DNA of 64,000 nt, from positions 3,782,001-3,846,000 of the forward strand of contig NZ_CP108101.1 in assembly GCF_036195325.1 (NCBI RefSeq). The letters are read 5' to 3'. A program made the translations under genes and the position numbers. Below the pieces are notes generated by a model, which saw nothing but the letters and a program-made list of their open reading frames with translations, had not been told where the DNA came from and searched no databases. Shown here in pieces: positions 6,148-20,416 of the stretch (the first letter of the stretch is position 1; every line of letters begins with the position of its first letter). Source of the stretch: Streptomyces sp. NBC_00234. Lineage in GTDB: Bacteria; Actinomycetota; Actinomycetes; Streptomycetales; Streptomycetaceae.

Positions 6148-6221
6148 CGGGGTGTAGCGCAGCTTGGCAGCGCGCTTCGTTCGGGACGAAGAGGTCGTGG
6201 GTTCAAATCCCGCCACCCCGA
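6148..6221 (+). tRNA. tRNA-Pro (anticodon CGG)
   Basis: A 74-nt cloverleaf: acceptor stem CGGGGTG/CACCCCG with discriminator A at 6221, D arm GCGCAGCTTGGCAGCGC, anticodon stem CTTCG/CGAAG around loop TTCGGGA (anticodon CGG), and T-arm loop GTTCAAATC. CCA is not encoded. The 3' part from 6180 is duplicated at 12064-12125, so this gene was the attachment site of the element to its right; the intact tRNA is the left copy. Confidence 0.95.
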
Positions 6222-6241
6222 CAGCTGAAACACCAGGTCAA
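6180..6241 (+). repeat. Left attachment repeat (62 bp, within tRNA-Pro)
   Basis: Identical over 62 bp to 12064-12125. It begins in the anticodon loop region, covers the T arm and acceptor 3' strand, and runs about 20 bp beyond the tRNA. The bases just outside the core differ between copies. Confidence 0.9.
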
Positions 6242-6273
6242 AGGCCAGGTCCTAAATTTGGGACCTGGCCTTT
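6240..6273 (+). terminator. Hairpin terminator after tRNA-Pro
   Basis: Perfect 13-bp inverted repeat AAAGGCCAGGTCC with an 8-nt AT-rich loop, 19 nt after the tRNA. It lies on the element side of the left att core, so the element supplies a replacement terminator for the tRNA. Confidence 0.75.
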
Positions 6274-6336
6274 GTCGTACCCCGGGGGCCAAACAGGGGG
6301 CCAAAGCAAGCTGATCCAGCTCCATGAGCAGACGCA

Positions 6337-6876
6337 GTGAGCTTTACTGCTGGCGTGGATCAGGGCATAGCAGGCTTAGTGGGAGCCGCGGTCGGAGGAC
6401 TGATCGGCGTCGTGGGCACCTTGGGGGCCGCTCGACTGACCGGTAAGGACCAGAGACGGAACCAACATGAGCACTGGCGTCGCCAGCAGCGGCGAGATGC
6501 CTACAGTCAGCTTGTGATCCAAGCTTCTGAAGCTCTCAGGCTGGGTAGCAGCGCGCAAGATGCTTTCGAAGCCCGTGACCCGTCCTCCACTGCTCTCTCC
6601 GAACAGTTCAGTGGGGTGGTGCACAGGCTGGGCGAAGCCGAGAGTCTGGTTGCTCTCGAAGGCCCGGAAGAAGCGTCCAACGAAGCTGGTGAGCTCATTA
6701 CAGAGCTATACACATGGGCGAACAGTCTCGACGTCGCCGTAGCAACGAGGGACGGACACGTCACGCTTCCCTCAGACTGGTCGGTCTCCCTAAGCGAGCT
6801 AGTCGATCACAGAGATCGTAGTCACGAAGCCGTGGCTACCTTCACCATGCACTGCCGACGCCTGTTGGACAGCTGA
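6337..6876 (+). CDS. Hypothetical membrane-anchored protein of the element
   Basis: A 179-aa protein starting at GTG. An N-terminal Gly/Ala-rich membrane segment (about 10-32, GLVGAAVGGLIGVVGTLGAA) is followed by a charged soluble domain (KDQRRNQHEHWRRQQRRDAY) that looks all-helical. This layout is common in small streptomycete accessory proteins, but I do not recognise a family. Its codons are less GC-biased than core genes (AAG/GAA/TCT/CTC mixed), consistent with transfer on the element. Confidence 0.65.
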   Translation: MSFTAGVDQGIAGLVGAAVGGLIGVVGTLGAARLTGKDQRRNQHEHWRRQQRRDAYSQLVIQASEALRLGSSAQDAFEARDPSSTALSEQFSGVVHRLGEAESLVALEGPEEASNEAGELITELYTWANSLDVAVATRDGHVTLPSDWSVSLSELVDHRDRSHEAVATFTMHCRRLLDS

Positions 6877-6906
6877 ATCCGAGCGCCCAAGGACTGGTTC
6901 AACCGC

Positions 6907-6946
6907 ATGTCAGTGGCGCGTGTGCTCACGGCCGCGCCACTGACAT
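6907..6946. terminator. Bidirectional terminator between the 6337 gene and the integrase remnant
   Basis: Perfect 14-bp inverted repeat (6907-6920 with 6933-6946) with a 12-nt loop, sited between two convergent reading frames. Confidence 0.7.
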
Positions 6947-6951
6947 CCTTG

Positions 6952-7423
6952 TTACGGATAGAGGTCAACCCTCGCACTTGGTGCTCGGTCGTCGGCGAAG
7001 ATGTCGTCCATCGCTTCGGCACCCTGCGTGATCACGGGTCGGAGCTGCTTACGGTAGACCGCCTCTGTGGTCGCCTGACTGCTGTGACCGACCAAGAGCG
7101 CGATCCGCTCCAAGGGGATGCCGTGGTCGGAGAGCAGGGACACGAAACTGTGCCGGAGCTCCCGCGGCGTCCACTCAGGCTTCAGTCCGGCCTTCTTCAC
7201 GATGGCCTTGAAGTCTCGCCGGACGTTGGCTGCGTCCAGCGGCTCGCCGCTCCGAGTCGTGAAGACACGCCCCGTCGGGCTCCACTCCATCCCTCTCGAT
7301 GCCCGCTCCTGCTTCTGCCATCGCATGTGCTCTTCGAGGACGTCGACTACCTGTCGGTAGAGCGATGGTCCGGCGGCTCTTCCTCGTCTTGGTGTCACCG
7401 TGCTTGCGCACCCGAAGAATGGG
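6952..7423 (-). pseudogene. Tyrosine-recombinase integrase remnant (C-terminal part, frameshifted)
   Basis: The C-terminal catalytic half of a phage/AICE-type integrase is readable: box II with PRELRHSFVSLLSDHGIP and LVGHSSQATTEAVYRKQLRP, giving the R, H-x-x-R/LVGH and catalytic Tyr pattern. The upstream part, KHGDTKTRKSRRTIALP, is in another frame. Restoring the match to QVVDVLEEH needs loss of one base near 7351. The N-terminal half is missing; similarity stops near 7413-7423, where a remnant on the other strand begins. It ends about 0.7 kb from the left att repeat, as expected for an element integrase. Confidence 0.85.
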
Positions 7424-9787: not shown

Positions 9788-10909
9788 ATGCGTAAGACGA
9801 TCAGGAAGCTGATGATGCCGGCGGTGGCAGCCGCTGTTGTCAGTGCCGTCGTAGTCGGTGTGGTCCATGAGGGAGAAACGCGCAGCGCCGACGTCCAGCT
9901 CAGCACCTTCGGTGACGACCAGGCACGGGGCGACAGCCACTCTGCCGCCGTCGGGAATGGCGCAACCAGCGGGCACCCGCAACCCGGACTGCGCGGGACG
10001 CCATTGGACAAGCCGTCGTCCAGCGACACCGGGTGGCCTGTCCTCAAGACGGGACAGCACAACGAGAACGTCCGCAGCGCCCAGTTGCTGCTCGCATCAA
10101 GCGGCTATCGCCTCGCCGCTGACGGAAGCTACGGCCCGGCCACCGCCGCCACAACCTCGGCGTTCCAGCGCACGAACGGCCTCACGGTGAACGGCTCCAT
10201 TGACGGACCCACCTGGAACAAACTGCTACGCACGGTCGGCCGCGGGGCATCTGGCCCCGCAGTGAAGGCAGTGCAGGCCCAGCTGAACATGTACCGCAAT
10301 CAGCTCGCCGTCGACGGAGCGTTCGGCCCTGCCACCGCGGCCGCTGTCGCGAAGTTCCAGCAAAATCGCCGCCTGACGGCCGACGGCATCGTGGGGCCGC
10401 TCACTTGGAAGAAGCTCATCAGCGGGACCGCGCTGGCCAAGCGCGGCACCCCCGCCAAGCCTGCCCCGGCGGCGCCGTCCCAGCTCCCAGAGGAGCTCAC
10501 CCACACCCAGGCCATGGCCCTGCTGCGCCCCGCCGGCATCACCACATCGTCGAGCGGCGGCTGCGACAACCGCAACAACAACCGCTGCACGAGCCTGGAC
10601 GACATCCGCAGCGACTCCATCCGCGGCGTCATCGCCTTGCGCAGGGCCAGCGGCTGTCCCCTCGTCATTACGGGCGGCACCGAATACGGAATCCACAACG
10701 AGGAGATCCCGAAGGCCCACACGAAGGGCTACAAGCTCGACCTCCGGATCGACACCTGCATCACCAACTGGATCAAGAACACCCAGCGCAAGGCCGCCCC
10801 TCGCAAGGCCGACCCGCGTTGGCAGGGCAAGTTCAGCAACATTGCGATCGAGTACGTCTACGAGACTCCCACGAACGGTGACGTCCACTGGGACATCACC
10901 TTCAACTAG
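9788..10909 (+). CDS. Secreted peptidase M15-like protein with two peptidoglycan-binding repeats
   Basis: A 373-aa exported protein. An N-terminal signal (basic MRKTIRKL, then a hydrophobic Ala/Val run to about residue 27) precedes two PG_binding_1 repeats (about 95-150 and 155-215, each with GxxGPxT and FQ..N.L motifs). The C-terminal 130 aa resemble the D-Ala-D-Ala carboxypeptidase-like M15 group, with zinc ligands apparent in AHTKGYKLD and VHWDITF. It probably binds and trims cell-wall peptides outside the cell. GGAGG precedes the start. It is the best-preserved cargo gene of the element. Confidence 0.8.
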
Positions 10910-12273: not shown

Positions 12274-13539
12274 TCAGGCTTCGCCGTGGGAGGTCGCCTT
12301 GGTGGCGGGGCCGGGGGTGTCGTGTCGGGTGCATGCCCACAGCGCGAGCCCGAGGCAGCTGAACGCGGCGCCCAGTGCGCATACGGCGCCCCAGCCGGCT
12401 ACTGCGTAGAGGGAGGTCGCGGCGATGGCGCCGGTGGCGCTGCCGATCGCGTAGAAGATCATGTATCCGCCGATCAGCCGGCTGCCCGCGTCCGGGTGCA
12501 GCGCGTAGATCAGGGTCTGGTTGGTGACATGGACCGCCTGCACGGCGAGGTCCAGGAGGATCACCCCGACGACCAGGGCCCAGAGCGAGCTGCGGGTGAA
12601 GGCCAGGGGCAGCCACGAGGCGGCGAGCAGTGCCAGGGCGATGCCGGTGGTCCGGCCGGAGAGTCCGCGGTCGTTCAGGCGGCCCGCCACGGTCGCGGCC
12701 AGGGCGCCGGCGACACCGATCAGCCCCAGGGCCCCGATCGCGCTGTGCGGCAGGAAGTACGGGGCCTCGCTCAGCGGCAGTGCGACGCTGCTCCACAGGG
12801 TGCTGAAGGCGGCGAAGACCAGCAGGCCGAACAGGGCCCGGAGCCGCAGCAGTCGTTCCCGTGCGAACAGGGTGACCGTGGAGCGCAGGAGCTGGCCGTA
12901 GCGCAGGGTTGCCGGCGGAGCGGCACCGTGGCGCGGCAGCACTCGGTACAGGACCAGGGCGAGCAGAGCGGTGAGCGCGGCCGAGGCGAGGTAGACGGAG
13001 CGCCAGCCCGCGAGATCGGCCATGAGGCCGGATGCGGTGCGGGCGAGCAGGATTCCGATGACCACTCCGCTGGTGACCAGACCGACGACGCGTCCGCGTA
13101 CGGCGGGAGGGGCCAGCGACGCCGCGAAGGCCACCAGCGTCTGGGTGACGACCGCGAGAAGCCCCAGCGCGGCCATGCCCGCGAGCAGGACCGCCGCCGA
13201 GTGGGCGGTGGCCACCACGGCCAGCGCCACCACCAGGAGCAGCAGCTGCGCCACGACGAGCCGTCTGCGGTCGGCCACGTCGCCCAGCGGCACGAGGAAG
13301 AAGAGTCCCAGCCCGTATCCGACCTGCGTGAGGGTGACCACGCCGCCGACCAGCGCCGGGCTCATGCCGAGGTCGTGGCCCATGGTCACCAGGAGCGGCT
13401 GGGAGAAGTAGACGTTGGCCACCGCAGCCCCGCAGGCGACGGCGAACAGGATGACGACGCCCCGGGAGAGGGCGAACGCCGGACCCTCACCGCTTCGGGC
13501 CTCGGTCCGTCGTGTCGCGGCCTCACCGTTGCCGGGCAT
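12274..13539 (-). CDS. MFS transporter (drug-efflux type)
   Basis: A 421-aa major facilitator protein with 12 predicted helices. The start is ATG 13539 because GGAGGAG lies 5 nt upstream; an in-frame ATG at 13557 has no such site. Family features include NVYFSQPLLVTMGHDLGMSP in helix 1-2, PLGDVADRRR (loop 2-3 motif A) and LAPPAVRGRVVGLVTSG. This is the sugar/drug efflux group common beside HxlR genes. It is divergent from the HxlR regulator with a shared promoter region, and probably exports the small molecule that the regulator senses. Confidence 0.88.
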   Translation of the reverse strand: MPGNGEAATRRTEARSGEGPAFALSRGVVILFAVACGAAVANVYFSQPLLVTMGHDLGMSPALVGGVVTLTQVGYGLGLFFLVPLGDVADRRRLVVAQLLLLVVALAVVATAHSAAVLLAGMAALGLLAVVTQTLVAFAASLAPPAVRGRVVGLVTSGVVIGILLARTASGLMADLAGWRSVYLASAALTALLALVLYRVLPRHGAAPPATLRYGQLLRSTVTLFARERLLRLRALFGLLVFAAFSTLWSSVALPLSEAPYFLPHSAIGALGLIGVAGALAATVAGRLNDRGLSGRTTGIALALLAASWLPLAFTRSSLWALVVGVILLDLAVQAVHVTNQTLIYALHPDAGSRLIGGYMIFYAIGSATGAIAATSLYAVAGWGAVCALGAAFSCLGLALWACTRHDTPGPATKATSHGEA

Positions 13540-13569
13540 CAGCACTCCTCCGCACATCTGGTTTCATCT

Positions 13570-13604
13570 TGCTACCAGAGGTGACGGTAACTTCCTTGGT
13601 AGCA
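13570..13604. promoter_or_regulatory. Inverted repeat operator between MFS and HxlR genes
   Basis: Perfect 8-bp inverted repeat TGCTACCA (13570-13577) and TGGTAGCA (13597-13604) with a 19-bp spacer in the 96-bp divergent intergenic region. Likely HxlR binding site controlling both genes. Confidence 0.55.
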
Positions 13605-13635
13605 TGTTGCAACCGTCGTGAAAGTGAGGGATGGC

Positions 13636-14088
13636 ATGGTGACCAGGACGCGCTTCAACGACAGCGAATGTCCCGTCGCCCGGTCGGTGGACGCGATCGG
13701 CGACTGGTGGTCCCTGCTGATCGTGCGGGACGCCTTCGACGGGAGCCGGCGCTTCGGGGAGTTCCAGCGCAGCCTCGGCGTGGCGAAGAACATCCTCACC
13801 GCGCGCCTGCGCACCCTGGTCGCCGGCGGGGTTCTCGAATCCGTCCCCGCCTCGGACGGCAGCGCCTACCGCGAGTACGTACTGACTCCGAAGGGCAAGG
13901 CACTCTTCCCCGTCATCGTGGCGCTGCGGCAGTGGGGCGAACAGAACTTCTTCGAACCCGGGGAACCTCACTCGCAGTTGGTCGACCGTCGGCAGGAACG
14001 TCGCCTCCGGCCACTGGAAGTGCTGTCCGCGGACGGGCGACGACTGGACCCCGACGACACCACCGTCCACAAGGTCTCCGCCCGGTGA
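13636..14088 (+). CDS. HxlR family transcriptional regulator
   Basis: A 150-aa winged-helix protein. Signatures are SECPVARSVDAIGDWWSLLIVRDAF (first helices with the family Cys), RRFGEFQRSLGVAKNILTARL (recognition helix) and EYVLTPKGKALFPVIVAL (wing and dimer helix). ATG 13636 with GAGGG upstream is preferred over GTG 13618. It is divergent from the MFS gene, so it is probably a local repressor or activator that uses the inverted repeat at 13570-13604. The effector is unknown. Confidence 0.88.
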   Translation: MVTRTRFNDSECPVARSVDAIGDWWSLLIVRDAFDGSRRFGEFQRSLGVAKNILTARLRTLVAGGVLESVPASDGSAYREYVLTPKGKALFPVIVALRQWGEQNFFEPGEPHSQLVDRRQERRLRPLEVLSADGRRLDPDDTTVHKVSAR

Positions 14089-14899: not shown

Positions 14900-16144
14900 T
14901 CACCGCGAGTCCTGGCCTTGGGCTCCACCACGCCGTTCGACGGACTGCCGGCAGCCGCTGCCGACAGGGCTCTCGGCCGCCCGACCGGGCAGGGCATCGC
15001 GCAGCAGCGCGGTGACCAGCAGCGAGAGCACAGCCATCATGGCCATCGCCCAGCCCACCGAGCGCCCACCACCGAACCACTGGGCGATGCCACCGGCCAA
15101 CAGCGCACCCAGCGCCTGGCCCGCCATCACACCGGTTCCGGAGAGGCCGAACGCCTGACCCCGCACGCTTTCATGGGTATGCCGCACCAGCCGCTCCTGC
15201 AACGGCAACGATGCCGAGAAGCCGAAGGCGGAGACCCCGACCAGCGTCGCCTCGACCGGCGCTGACAGCGACAGGGGGAACGCCAGGAACGGCACCGCCA
15301 GCAGCACGCGCAGCGGCACGATCAGCCTGTCGCGCAGACCTTCGGGGACGAATCGTCCCATCACGATGTCGCCCAGGAGCATGCCGACCGCGCCGGCTGC
15401 CAGCAGGTATCCGGCATGGCCGGTGGAGTACGGGATGAACAACGCCTCGCACCCCACGACCAGCCCGTTGGGCACCCACATCATCAGGTAGAGAGGCCGG
15501 ACGACGGGCGAGGTGAGAAGTTCGCGGTTGATACGGCGGCTGCGTTCGACAACCTTCCCCTCCGCTCGTGGCGGACGGTCGGCGAGCCCGATCCTCGCTG
15601 CGATGCCTGCGGTGGCGCTCACCAGGGCGGCGAGCCCGAACAGCCAGGTCGGCGACACCACGGCGAGCAGCAGAGCGCCGGTGGCATTGCCAACGATCTG
15701 CATTCCACCGACGGTGATGTTCATCGTGGCACGGGCCAGCACATACGCGTCCTTCGGCACGATGTCCGACAACAGAGCGACGACTGTGCCCGACGTGGCG
15801 GCCAACGCCACGTACCCGCCGGCGAGGATCAGGAAGCGCATCCACCAGGTCAGGTCAGGGAGCATCTGCAACGTGGCCGTCAGCGCCGCAATGCCCGCCA
15901 TGAAGATCACGGCAGTGCGGGGGCGCAGCAGATCCGAGGAGGCCAGCAGGTAGCGCGCGGTGACGAGCTGCACCAGCGGGCCCCCGAAGAGGGAGATCGC
16001 GGTCAGGAAGGGTGACCTCGTCTCGCGGTACATCACCGTGCCGAGCGCCAGGCCGGAGGCTACGACGCCCAGCATCGCGAACAGGCGTACCACGAAGAGG
16101 ACTCGGAACTCACGGATGCCGAATATCGCGCGATAGGTGGTCAC
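14900..16144 (-). CDS. MFS transporter, last gene of the ATP-grasp cassette
   Basis: A 414-aa major facilitator with about 12 helices (for example FRVLFVVRLFAMLGVVASGLAL, VVALLSDIVPKDAYVLARA). It starts at GTG 16144, whose GTGA overlaps the stop of the 33-aa ORF upstream, so translation is probably coupled; there is no convincing ribosome binding site of its own. As the terminal gene of a minus-strand operon with two ATP-grasp ligases, it is the likely exporter or immunity pump for their product. The C-terminus is hydrophilic. Confidence 0.8.
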   Translation of the reverse strand: MTTYRAIFGIREFRVLFVVRLFAMLGVVASGLALGTVMYRETRSPFLTAISLFGGPLVQLVTARYLLASSDLLRPRTAVIFMAGIAALTATLQMLPDLTWWMRFLILAGGYVALAATSGTVVALLSDIVPKDAYVLARATMNITVGGMQIVGNATGALLLAVVSPTWLFGLAALVSATAGIAARIGLADRPPRAEGKVVERSRRINRELLTSPVVRPLYLMMWVPNGLVVGCEALFIPYSTGHAGYLLAAGAVGMLLGDIVMGRFVPEGLRDRLIVPLRVLLAVPFLAFPLSLSAPVEATLVGVSAFGFSASLPLQERLVRHTHESVRGQAFGLSGTGVMAGQALGALLAGGIAQWFGGGRSVGWAMAMMAVLSLLVTALLRDALPGRAAESPVGSGCRQSVERRGGAQGQDSR

Positions 16145-16242
16145 TTGACGTGTGAGCGATCGATGCGAGCCATCGGCGGGGCGTCACCGCGCCACGAGGC
16201 CGCATGGCCCTCACCGGCCGGCCACCTCTCACTCACTGACAT
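16141..16242 (-). CDS. 33-aa ORF bridging the ATP-grasp and MFS genes
   Basis: Its ATG (16242) lies 14 nt inside the end of the upstream ATP-grasp gene, with GGGAG 9 nt before it. Its TGA (16141-16143) overlaps the GTG of the MFS gene. The peptide begins MSVSERWPAGEGHAASW, is soluble, and has no Cys. About three quarters of its codons end in G or C. It could be a genuine small product, a coupling device for the transporter, or chance. Family not recognised. Confidence 0.4.
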   Translation of the reverse strand: MSVSERWPAGEGHAASWRGDAPPMARIDRSHVK

Positions 16243-17419
16243 CGATCCGAACTCCCGAGGTGACCTTCCGGCATATGTCGATCGCCTGCGCAGCGGTCGG
16301 CGCTGTGGCCAGCACATAGCCAACCCGCGTGCGGGAGTTGCGGATTGCGTGGATCCTGTCTCCGATCTTCACGGGCAGGTGCACCTTCAGGACGCCCGGA
16401 AGACCTTGCCACCGCTGTAGCCCCGTGATGTCGGCGACCCTTCCCGGTGGCGGTGTGAAGAAGCGGATGGCAGCGGCACCAGGATTCACCGGTGCCGTCT
16501 CCTGCGGCCTGGTCCGGTCGATGGCCCACTGGACCACAAGGTCGAGCAGGTCGCATCCGGTGGCTTGCCTGACGAGCACGGGAATCGAGTCTCCGCCGAC
16601 ACGGGTGTGCGTCTCGATGACCTCCGGGCCCGAAGGCGTCAGGCGCAGCTCCGTATGGCTGCAGCCATCGGTCATTCCCATGACGTCGAGGAAATCCGAG
16701 ACGTACTCCTTGATCGCTGCCGCGACCTCCGGTTCGACCTGCGCGGGGACGACATGACCCACCTCCACGAAGGGGTTCGCCGGGTCGTCGTCGTGCGTGA
16801 ACTTCCCCGTGATCGCCACCACGTGGTGATCACCGGCACAGCTGAAGCCCTCGACCGAGAATTCCCGGCCCGGGAGGAACGGCTCGGCAATGTACTCGTC
16901 GGTGGTCGTGGGCGGCAGGACCACCTCGTCGGCCTTCCGGAAGCATGAGACGTTCTCGCTTCCCTGGCCGTGTCGCGGCTTCACCATCACCGGGTATCCG
17001 TGCCTGGCCGCGAAGTTGTGGATGTCTGCGACGTCCCGCACGACCTCACAGGGAACAGTGGAGAACCCCTTGTCCCGCAACCAGGTCCGCATGGCGAGCT
17101 TGTCCCGTGTGCGTGCGACCACTTCTGGCGACAGACCAGGAATCCCGAGGGCCTCGGCGATCCGCGCAGCAGGCATCAATCCCTGCTCCGTAAGTGAAAG
17201 CACCGCACTGAACGGGCTGTCACGGTGGATCGCCTGCACCAGCGGGATCAGCGACGGATCATCGTATTCGGTCAGCACAGTGCGCCTGACAACCGAATTC
17301 AACGCCTGGTCGTACCGTGCCGGTGTTTCGACCAGCGTGATCTCCGCACCGGACAAACGCAGGCGGTCACAGAGTCCAGGACTACTGCCCAGGACAACGA
17401 CCTGTCTCGGGGCTTCCAT
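16229..17419 (-). CDS. ATP-grasp ligase B
   Basis: A 396-aa ATP-grasp enzyme of the carboxylate-amine ligase type. The start at MEAPRQVVVLG is supported by AAAGGA upstream; a GTG three codons earlier is too close to it. An N-terminal Rossmann-like part (VVVLGSSPG) precedes the ATP-binding Lys147 in PVMVKPRHGQGS, AEPFLPGREFSVEG, and the metal-binding segment with Glu257 and VIETHTRVGGD (267-277). Such enzymes join an amino acid to another amine via an acyl phosphate. It lies 46 nt after ligase A in one operon, so the two may act in sequence on one product. Confidence 0.8.
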   Translation of the reverse strand: MEAPRQVVVLGSSPGLCDRLRLSGAEITLVETPARYDQALNSVVRRTVLTEYDDPSLIPLVQAIHRDSPFSAVLSLTEQGLMPAARIAEALGIPGLSPEVVARTRDKLAMRTWLRDKGFSTVPCEVVRDVADIHNFAARHGYPVMVKPRHGQGSENVSCFRKADEVVLPPTTTDEYIAEPFLPGREFSVEGFSCAGDHHVVAITGKFTHDDDPANPFVEVGHVVPAQVEPEVAAAIKEYVSDFLDVMGMTDGCSHTELRLTPSGPEVIETHTRVGGDSIPVLVRQATGCDLLDLVVQWAIDRTRPQETAPVNPGAAAIRFFTPPPGRVADITGLQRWQGLPGVLKVHLPVKIGDRIHAIRNSRTRVGYVLATAPTAAQAIDICRKVTSGVRIDVSE

Positions 17420-17465
17420 GCCCAGCACATCCTTTCACTCGGGGAACACAGGGGCGAGCCAATGC

Positions 17466-18644
17466 CTACAGAGTCCGTATATAGGTGTCCAGATCCCTCA
17501 ACGACTCGCTCCGCAATACGGAATAACCGGTACGCCGGTTCCCCGAGAAGGGTTCCGCTCCGGAAACGAGATGTTCGCCGTCGTGGACGGCTCGCACTAC
17601 ATCGACTCCCGCCGGCCGGGCCGCTTCGGAGCGCTCGTCGAAGTGGAATCGAATCCCGTGCCAGATTCCCCGCGGTTCGTTCACGGGGACCTTCCAGTCG
17701 AGGCCGGCCCTGGCGTAGAGGTACGCCTCCTCCAGGCGCAGCCCGTGCTGCAGTTCGACGATCTCCGTCACATGGCCGCCGACGGGGCGAGCAGCGGCCT
17801 CGATGATGCTGATCCGCTCGGGATTCATCTTGAATTCCATGTGCATCACCCCCCGCACCATGCCCCAGCTCGACGCGATGCGCTCGGCCGTCTCCAACAG
17901 CCCTTGCCGGTGCTGTGCCGGCAGGTCGCTGCCGGAAATATGGCCGACCTCATGACATCCCGGAAGCGATGACACGAACTTCTGTGTCAATGCATGCGCG
18001 AGGATGCTTTCATCCTGCACGACGCATTCAAGACTGAACTCCGGCCCTTCCGCGAACTCTTCGACGAGAGCTCCCACGGTGAATTCGTAGTTGGTGAGCC
18101 GCGCCTTCCTGAAAGCGAACATCTTCGCCAGCGCGGCCTCGACCTCGTCCTGCGAGTCGCACGTGCGCACGAACAGGCTCATGGCCATGTCCAACGGCTT
18201 CACGACCACCGGGAAGGTGACGCTCCCCCAGTCGAACGCGCGGCTTTCCTCCAGCGAGGAAAGCCTGGCGAGCACCCGCGGTTGGGGTACGCCGTACCGG
18301 GCGAAGGCTTCCCGCATGAGCGACTTGTTCCGGGAGGCCCGTATGTTGATGACGTCGTTGTGATACAGACCCAATTCTTTTGCCAGGACGTCTGCCGCAA
18401 TCACCGCGAATTCGTTGCCCGCGGCCACTGCATCGAACCTCCGTGAACCGATTTGAGAAAGTAGTTCCCGAGGGGATTCCGACAGCGCCGGCACCCGAAT
18501 CCATTCGTGCAATCCGGCGGTGTTGTCCCCGACCGTGGAACGCTCAATCGTCACGATCGTCAGCCGCCAGCCCTCGCGTTTGCAGATTTCCGCAACGCGG
18601 TTCAGCGACCATTGCGCAACCGGGTGGAGCAAAAGAATATGCAT
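17466..18644 (-). CDS. ATP-grasp ligase A
   Basis: A 392-aa ATP-grasp enzyme. The start is placed at MHILLLHPVAQW because the fold begins there. Motifs are an N-terminal pre-ATP-grasp domain, Lys149 in FPVVVKPLDMAMS, the EEFAEGPEFSLE strand (195-206), and the catalytic acidic pair in HMEFKM (Glu270) and IIEAAARPVGG (280-290). This resembles dipeptide or amino-acid ligases (BL00235/carnosine-synthase-like), not the MvdD graspetide type. Its GC bias is slightly weaker than in core genes. It lies 44 nt after a 34-aa ORF and just upstream of ligase B. Confidence 0.8.
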   Translation of the reverse strand: MHILLLHPVAQWSLNRVAEICKREGWRLTIVTIERSTVGDNTAGLHEWIRVPALSESPRELLSQIGSRRFDAVAAGNEFAVIAADVLAKELGLYHNDVINIRASRNKSLMREAFARYGVPQPRVLARLSSLEESRAFDWGSVTFPVVVKPLDMAMSLFVRTCDSQDEVEAALAKMFAFRKARLTNYEFTVGALVEEFAEGPEFSLECVVQDESILAHALTQKFVSSLPGCHEVGHISGSDLPAQHRQGLLETAERIASSWGMVRGVMHMEFKMNPERISIIEAAARPVGGHVTEIVELQHGLRLEEAYLYARAGLDWKVPVNEPRGIWHGIRFHFDERSEAARPAGVDVVRAVHDGEHLVSGAEPFSGNRRTGYSVLRSESLRDLDTYIRTL

Positions 18645-18688
18645 GTTCACACGCCTTTGAACCCGTCGGGCAGGAAGTCGGTCACACG

Positions 18689-18793
18689 TCAGGGATTCTG
18701 CATCTGCGGGTCGCACCCGCATTCCGCCCGGTACGCCTCGATGCTCTCCGGCAGGGCAGCACGGAGCTGCCGCGGAGCAGCTCGACGACCCAC
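18689..18793 (-). CDS. 34-aa ORF heading the ATP-grasp operon (possible precursor peptide)
   Basis: GTG start at 18793 with AGGGGGA ending 5 nt upstream, one of the strongest ribosome binding sites in the region. The stop lies 44 nt before ATP-grasp ligase A. The basic N-terminus (MGRRAAPRQLRAALPES) and acidic, Cys-containing C-terminus (AECGCDPQMQNP) look like a leader plus core, but similarity is unknown. About 74% of codons end in G or C. Could be a peptide substrate of the ligases, a regulatory leader ORF, or chance. Confidence 0.4.
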   Translation of the reverse strand: MGRRAAPRQLRAALPESIEAYRAECGCDPQMQNP

Positions 18794-19040
18794 CGAAGTC
18801 CCCCTGGACGCGCGATGTTGCGGTCAGCAGCCCGCACCGGGCGACGCTCTCCGCGTGATCGCGTGGGCAAGCTAACACTCCATCGCCGTGCCCGAAAGAC
18901 AAGATCCGAAGGACAGGGTTGTACCCCCTGCGCTCCGGCGATCTCTCGTGCGTGACCGTTACGCCTGACATGCGACCTTCGTACGCACATGCGAATCTGG
19001 AAGGGCCCCATCGTTCGGGACGCTGACAGGAGGCGTGATC

Positions 19041-19750: not shown

Positions 19751-20416
19751 TCAGTGTCCGGTCAGAGCCCTGAGCGCGACGTTGAGCTGGAGCACGTTCA
19801 CCCGGGGCTCGCCGATGAAACCGAGGACGCGGTCGTCCGTGTGGGCGGCGACGAGTGCGGCGACCCGTCGGGCGTCGAGGTGGTTCTTCTCGGCGACGCG
19901 GTTGACCTGGAGCTTCGCGTATTCGGGGGAGATGTGCGGGTCCAGGCCGGAGCCGGAGGAGGTGACGGCGTCGGCCGGCACGTCGGAGGGATTCACCGGG
20001 TGGCCGGCGGTCGAGTTGTCCTTGACCACGGCGGCCTTGGCGTCCTTGACCCACTGGATCAGCTCCGGGTTGTCGCCCGAGCGGTTGGTCGCGCCGGAAA
20101 GGATCAGCGCGTACTGGGTGTTCACGCCGTTGGTACCGAGGACGTTGGAGGGGCGGGGCTGGAACCACCTGAGGTCCGGGGCCGCCGTCTCCTCCCCGTC
20201 CTTCAGGGGTACGTCGTAGCGCTGCCCGATGAGGGAGGAACCGACGACCCTGCCGCCGGACGTGATCTCGGAGCCGTTGGCCTTGTCGCTGAACAGGGCC
20301 TGGGCGACGCCGGTGACCGCGAGCGGGTAGACCACCCCGCAGATCAGGGTCAGGACGAGCAGGGCGCGCAGACCGGCGCCGAGCATCCGGGCCGTGCTTC
20401 CAAGGGAGTTGTTCAT
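19751..20416 (-). CDS. kdpC: Potassium-transporting ATPase subunit C
   Basis: A 221-aa KdpC. A single N-terminal membrane helix (LRALLVLTLICGVVYPLAVTGVAQ, about 17-40) is followed by a large external domain with the family motifs GSSLIGQ, FQPRPS, SGSGLDPHISPEYA and VNVLQLNVAL. KdpC stabilises the KdpFABC complex and raises ATP affinity. It begins 6 nt after kdpB as the last gene of the operon. No kdpD or kdpE follows. Confidence 0.97.
   Translation of the reverse strand: MNNSLGSTARMLGAGLRALLVLTLICGVVYPLAVTGVAQALFSDKANGSEITSGGRVVGSSLIGQRYDVPLKDGEETAAPDLRWFQPRPSNVLGTNGVNTQYALILSGATNRSGDNPELIQWVKDAKAAVVKDNSTAGHPVNPSDVPADAVTSSGSGLDPHISPEYAKLQVNRVAEKNHLDARRVAALVAAHTDDRVLGFIGEPRVNVLQLNVALRALTGH

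Follow-up and report, generated by a model that had tools for sequence, protein, structure and literature searches.

An ATP-grasp ligase and exporter cassette of Streptomyces sp. NBC_00234 as the likely surviving core of a larger arginine-related actinobacterial cluster

The window, by which we mean the whole stretch of 64,000 nucleotides of Streptomyces sp. NBC_00234 that was analysed, carries on its minus strand a compact cassette composed of two ATP-grasp ligases, an MFS exporter and two very small open reading frames. Its features, in window coordinates and in the order in which they are read, are:

18794..18900, minus strand: probable leader (5' region) of a lost LuxR-family regulator gene, from local alignment upstream of L004:1786
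18793-18689, minus strand: 34-aa ORF, GTG start; matches the first 22 codons of a LuxR/GerE regulator gene, followed by unmatched sequence
18645..18688, minus strand: rest of the PhyH-to-ligase-A intergenic stretch, from alignment to the sequence directly upstream of L004 ligase A
18644-17466, minus strand: ligase A, ATP-grasp, amino-acid-ligase type, 392 aa, ATG start
17428-16229, minus strand: ligase B, ATP-grasp with LAL_C2, 399 aa, GTG start (396 aa if read from the ATG at 17419)
16242-16141, minus strand: 33-aa ORF, ATG start; its 3' end matches an argH2 end and overlaps the MFS start
16144-14900, minus strand: MFS exporter, 414 aa, GTG start, PF07690

All five ORFs lie where they were originally described and with the described spacing, that is, gaps of 44 and 46 nt (the latter with the ATG of ligase B) and then overlaps of 14 and 4 nt, and the cassette is indeed placed between tRNA-Pro (6148-6222) and kdp (KdpC at 19751-20416). 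The three large reading frames, of ligase A, ligase B and the MFS exporter, are intact, and all three are genuine genes; the pump matches PF07690 (MFS_1) at 1.4e-15 and is 71-78% identical to four MFS rows of the alignment of its relatives. A second MFS gene (minus strand) adjoins an HxlR-type regulator gene (plus strand) beside the cassette (12274-14088), and a protein with peptidoglycan-binding domains and endolysin-family matches is encoded at 9788-10909. Close to tRNA-Pro, a minus-strand, 148-aa fragment of a phage-type integrase (6148-7398) suggests the remnant of an integrated element in this accessory stretch.

Both ligases are of the L-amino-acid-ligase kind, as had been proposed from the sequence. 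Ligase A matches the ATP-grasp family PF13535 (6e-20) in Pfam, where LAL_C2 is not listed for it at the cut-off used, and ligase B matches LAL_C2 (3.6e-24; 85 bits, cut-off 29.4) and ATP-grasp_4 (6e-14). The closest solved structure is in both cases BL00235 (E 7.5e-18 for ligase A and 6e-32 for ligase B), followed by BacD for ligase A and by another L-amino-acid ligase (30vh) and RizA for ligase B. Glu270, Glu282 and Arg286 of ligase A, and Glu257, Glu269 and Arg273 of ligase B, are invariant in all eight aligned rows and align with residues of BL00235; we take these two glutamates and the arginine to be the catalytic set of the ATP-grasp family. A Foldseek search with a predicted model of ligase B of moderate quality (pLDDT 68.6), used beside the sequence evidence only, returned 3vot as the best match; the AlphaFold model of ligase A, made from eight sequences, was poor (mean pLDDT 46.9). 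Distant relatives of ligase A also occur in 216 records of a plasmid collection, all below 60% identity (24.6-32.9% for the 20 listed). L-amino-acid ligases convert a free amino acid to an acyl phosphate, which is then passed to the amine of another amino acid. With the ligases adjoining an MFS exporter, the idea that the cassette makes and exports a short amino-acid conjugate is plausible; judged from the family to which they belong, the ligases most likely couple free amino acids to a product that the pump exports and that needs no ribosomal peptide.

Neither small ORF matches any Pfam family. In NCBIfam the two give a single match, that of the 34-aa ORF with a model of bacteriocin precursors, which is sub-threshold (13 bits, cut-off 26, E 0.088) and is no support for a peptide role. 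Since 34 ORFs of 30-40 aa are found on the minus strand of the window, and since GC3 is lower in the two small ORFs (0.71 and 0.74) than in the three large genes (0.77, 0.79 and 0.86), they are, as ORFs, not beyond chance.

To place the cassette in its evolutionary setting, we collected related loci. A scan of genome contigs yielded five, four of them close (69-76% best-segment identity), in Streptomyces guryensis (L004), S. albus NRRL F-4971 (L005), S. cupreus (L006) and Micromonospora sp. ALFpr18c (L007); the fifth (23%) was left out. Genome searches at E 1e-60 found a match in 1 of 392 genomes of the genus draw, 2 of 100 relatives, 4 of 391 of the order draw, 2 of 394 of the class draw, 1 of 14 of the family of G402 and 1 of 396 of the phylum draw, where the draws overlap and the window's own genome is counted in each tally except that for the family of G402. 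They added three genomes (G402, G436 and G621, with loci L016, L017 and L018) to a total of seven relatives, and with so few matching genomes per draw the cluster is rare and patchy.

That the unit is self-contained, as first thought, is not supported: in six of the seven relatives the ligase pair belongs to a full or near-full set that numbers eight or nine genes. By best tblastn hits, the order argG, argF, argH1, PhyH, ligase A, ligase B, argH2, MFS, desaturase is found in L005, L006, L007, L017 and L018, and the same order without MFS in L016, argH2 being argininosuccinate-lyase-like and PhyH a dioxygenase. Of these genes, the S. guryensis locus has argH1, PhyH, ligase A, ligase B and MFS and no others; a LuxR-type regulator gene and an opposite-strand ubiA gene lie ahead of them, and the latter encodes a UbiA-family prenyltransferase and lies between the regulator and argH1 (L004:2524-3465). 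Two loci encode an additional ATP-grasp protein near the full cluster, with 27-28% identity to ligase B, on the argG side in one (L016:16053-17108) and just beyond the desaturase in the other (L017:2587-3570).

Conservation of the small ORFs wherever the ligase pair occurs had been proposed as a check; in none of the seven relatives is there a separate small ORF in those places, the outcome that had been set beforehand as speaking against the small-peptide reading. PhyH stands directly ahead of ligase A in all seven, at distances of 34, 85, 2, 1, 20, 80 and 3 nt in L004, L005, L006, L007, L016, L017 and L018, respectively, which is too short a stretch to accommodate an ORF of 105 nt. The space separating ligase B from MFS is taken up by argH2 in the relatives that have both, except in S. 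guryensis, where nothing intervenes and the two genes overlap. There, ligase B runs directly into the MFS start and its last residues are unlike other ligase B ends (L004:8380-8440), from which argH2 seems to have been lost at another junction than in the window. Searches of the seven loci with the small ORFs (tblastn, composition correction off) gave scattered weak hits, for the 33-aa ORF in L004 (E 0.001, within the ubiA gene but out of frame), L018 (E 0.009) and L006 (E 0.012) and for the 34-aa ORF in L017 (E 0.005), none of which is a separate ORF in the relevant places; one weak, nine-residue hit in L006 is the expected end of argH2. By the same comparison, no conserved precursor gene, as expected for a ribosomal peptide, lies beside the ligases in the seven relatives.

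What had been taken for working parts of the system are best read, in one case, as the cut start of a regulator gene and, in the other, as an ORF whose tail matches the end of argH2. In blastn, the window and L004 share three long homologous pieces, namely the ligases, the pump and a 79-nt regulator piece, besides a short, chance-like one (32 nt, E 0.004). The regulator piece aligns the region of the 34-aa ORF with the regulator start (L004:1771-1849) at 78.5% over 79 nt (E 1.3e-7), and in tblastn the ORF is 59% identical to that start over 22 aa. In S. guryensis the ends of the ligase piece (L004:5972) and of the regulator piece (L004:1849) are about 4.1 kb from each other, but in the window 57 nt separate them. 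Local alignments to L004 exceed the best of 200 shuffles throughout, both for the 34-aa ORF (score 60, maximum 41 in dinucleotide shuffles) and for the leader ahead of it (18794..18900; 40, maximum 26 in dinucleotide shuffles) and the stretch before ligase A (18645..18688; 31, maximum 23), while no match was found for the last 39 nt of the ORF. The regulator's start codon is kept, and the 15 differences from L004 in the first 22 codons are spread 5/5/5 over the codon positions, as expected without coding constraint, although these 66 nt are a small sample. From these alignments we conclude with high confidence that the 34-aa ORF represents the leader and first 22 codons of the regulator gene, truncated when about 4.1 kb, judged against S. 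guryensis, were deleted.

The case of the 33-aa ORF is less uniform. The last 33 nt before its stop match the end of the S. cupreus argH2 in register at 22 of 33 positions, a value reached at none of 1207 slid positions and in none of 5000 shuffles, and the argH2 of L017 at 21 of 33 with an offset of one codon (none of 1207 slid positions as good; 8 of 33 unshifted). In register, the tail further matches argH2 at 15 of 33 positions in L007 (18 of 1207 slid positions as good), 13 in L018, 11 in L016 and 8 in L005, so that the in-register match is weak or absent in four of the six relatives, all but L006 and L017. A gapped search with the last 36 nt of the ORF fell short of significance (38 of 500 shuffles as good), no match was found for its middle, and local alignment gave no significant match to argH2 over the whole length of the ORF (162 of 200 shuffles as good). 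The 33-aa ORF shares four bases with the MFS start, an overlap that the stop of argH2 also has in S. cupreus. We regard the 33-aa ORF, with moderate confidence, as a probable scar, with a tail derived from the 3' end of argH2 and the overlap with the pump gene retained; at most, it may hand translation on to that gene.

Queries with argG, argF, argH2, PhyH and the desaturase found no close copy in the window's genome (best identities 43% for argH2, 39% for argG, 34% for argF and 28% for PhyH, and no hit for the desaturase); for comparison, ArgH1 and argH2 of S. cupreus are 48% identical. This raises the question of whether the trio of ligase A, ligase B and MFS, deprived of its tailoring enzymes, still makes anything useful or drifts towards pseudogenes. 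The latter would agree with the loss of most pathway genes, with the cut regulator and with the intermediate state of S. guryensis, which has only argH1, PhyH, both ligases and MFS, and in whose genome no close copy of argF, argG or the desaturase was found. However, all three reading frames of the trio are intact, and in a codon model fitted in Python on a fixed tree the omega of the window branch is as low as elsewhere (0.086 and 0.090 for ligase A, 0.153 and 0.106 for ligase B, 0.107 and 0.101 for MFS), with twice the log-likelihood difference at 0.03, 2.11 and 0.04, respectively, and thus greatest for ligase B; these values span the whole branch and cannot show that selection persisted after the deletions. 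The window pairs with S. guryensis in the joint tree (0.997) and in those of ligase A (0.985) and MFS (0.982), not in that of ligase B, a discord that counts against the reading as a surviving core. The branches of the two are equal in length (0.159 and 0.149), which speaks against decay. We thus consider a dying remnant unlikely; by these codon estimates, the trio is under purifying selection and has been kept functional for most of its branch.

In all six cluster ArgF proteins we find the motifs SLRTR, PMN and HNLP, whereas three of three housekeeping ornithine carbamoyltransferases (OTCs) have STRTR, SMG and HCLP, of which the last two are the ornithine-binding motifs. In S. cupreus, ArgF falls below both NCBIfam ornithine carbamoyltransferase cut-offs, while ArgG, ArgH1 (446.7 bits) and ArgH2 (596 bits; argH cut-off 279.5) score above those of their enzymes. 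The closest solved structure to PhyH is the leucine hydroxylase 5nch (E 1.3e-7), and the best NCBIfam match of the desaturase-like protein is the arginine hydroxylase GntB (46 bits, cut-off 380). With the housekeeping motifs missing from the cluster ArgF, an unusual amino acid of the ureido or guanidino type is the probable product of the parent pathway, to be joined into a short peptide. The extra argG, argF and argH genes could instead be resistance duplicates that protect the producer from its own inhibitor of arginine synthesis, built by the ligases, and the S. cupreus argG, argH1 and argH2 products do pass the cut-offs for their enzymes; yet the cluster argF product, deviating in six of six cases and scoring below both OTC cut-offs, is probably no replacement for the housekeeping enzyme, and two argH copies are ill-suited to a target copy, which makes resistance a poor explanation that we rate as quite improbable.

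On the ribosomal-peptide reading, one of the two small ORFs would supply a precursor for the ligases to modify or extend and for the pump to export. This would accord with the proper placement of both ORFs, overlapping or abutting genes, with the regulator's start codon, through which the 34-aa ORF may be translated, and with the weak bacteriocin-precursor match of the latter (13 bits, cut-off 26), but it is highly improbable given seven relatives without a separate small ORF in the same places, deletion as an explanation of how the 34-aa ORF and the tail of the 33-aa ORF arose, the 5/5/5 spread of changes in the 34-aa ORF and ligases that resemble enzymes acting on free amino acids.

Taken together, the cassette is likely the surviving core of a larger, arginine-related actinobacterial cluster, of which the window keeps ligase A, ligase B, the MFS exporter and two scars, and whose small ORFs are not substrates. 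In the parent pathway, as we picture it, 1) a carbamoyltransferase of altered specificity would carbamoylate an amine other than that of ornithine, 2) this enzyme together with ArgG and the ArgH proteins would convert the amine to a guanidine, 3) the PhyH and desaturase-like enzymes would oxidise the amino acid, 4) the two ATP-grasp ligases would form acyl phosphates from carboxylates and couple free amino acids to a di- or tripeptide, and 5) the pump would export it. In the window, the trio without the tailoring enzymes would join amino acids of general metabolism and export a simpler peptide. More tentatively still, it is possible that the full clusters encode a new guanidine-building pathway, in which a carbamoyltransferase retuned from ornithine works with its own ArgG and two ArgH proteins towards a new arginine-like amino acid, which undergoes two oxidations and is coupled by the two ligases, and that the window holds a still-selected ligase-ligase-pump core making a different, simpler peptide, with one scar ORF relaying translation to the pump.

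These results correct a tempting reading, as tiny ORFs packed beside peptide ligases can be deletion scars, as comparison with a few relatives brings out. The small-peptide idea is not supported, and the larger cluster is the more interesting object; it is conserved in Streptomyces, in Micromonospora and in two further genomes from outside the window's genus, and carries an arginine-like route whose first enzyme lacks the ornithine motifs. Should this route yield a new guanidino amino acid, the full clusters would be well worth mining for their products, and with a full and a reduced form at hand one could ask what the bare ligase core makes.

We found no description of this cluster in the open-licence papers searched; kasichelin, with one ATP-grasp protein (PMC12305651), was considered and set aside as apparently unrelated. 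Several known systems nevertheless share parts of it. The BL00235-type L-amino acid ligases (3vot) and the LAL_C2 family share the ATP-grasp fold, the LAL_C2 domain of ligase B and the best solved match of both ligases, but the window has two divergent ligases side by side, of which ligase A has no LAL_C2 match at the cut-off. PRK02186, an ATP-grasp protein fused to argininosuccinate lyase, scores highest among NCBIfam models for ligase B (171 bits) as well as for ligase A (104 bits), and the two ArgH proteins match it too, so that the neighbours ligase B and argH2 resemble its two halves; unlike in PRK02186, the genes are separate here, and the scores lie far under its cut-off of 625. GntB, from guanitoxin synthesis, is the best match of the desaturase-like enzyme, yet at 46 of the required 380 bits, and the desaturase gene is absent from the window's genome. 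In bacilysin, a dipeptide ligase is paired with an MFS pump, as in the window, and among solved structures BacD is related to each of the ligases (E 9e-14 for ligase A and 5e-15 for ligase B); in contrast, anticapsin genes are missing, the parent cluster has arginine-type enzymes, and the NCBIfam BacD score is 38 against a cut-off of 850. The rhizocticin ligase RizA (4wd3), although without a sequence match to ligase A at E 0.001 and although phosphonate genes were not seen in the loci, is matched by ligase B at E 6.3e-16 and by fold, and is reported to make arginyl dipeptides (PMC9321006), which fits an arginine-like substrate for the cluster.
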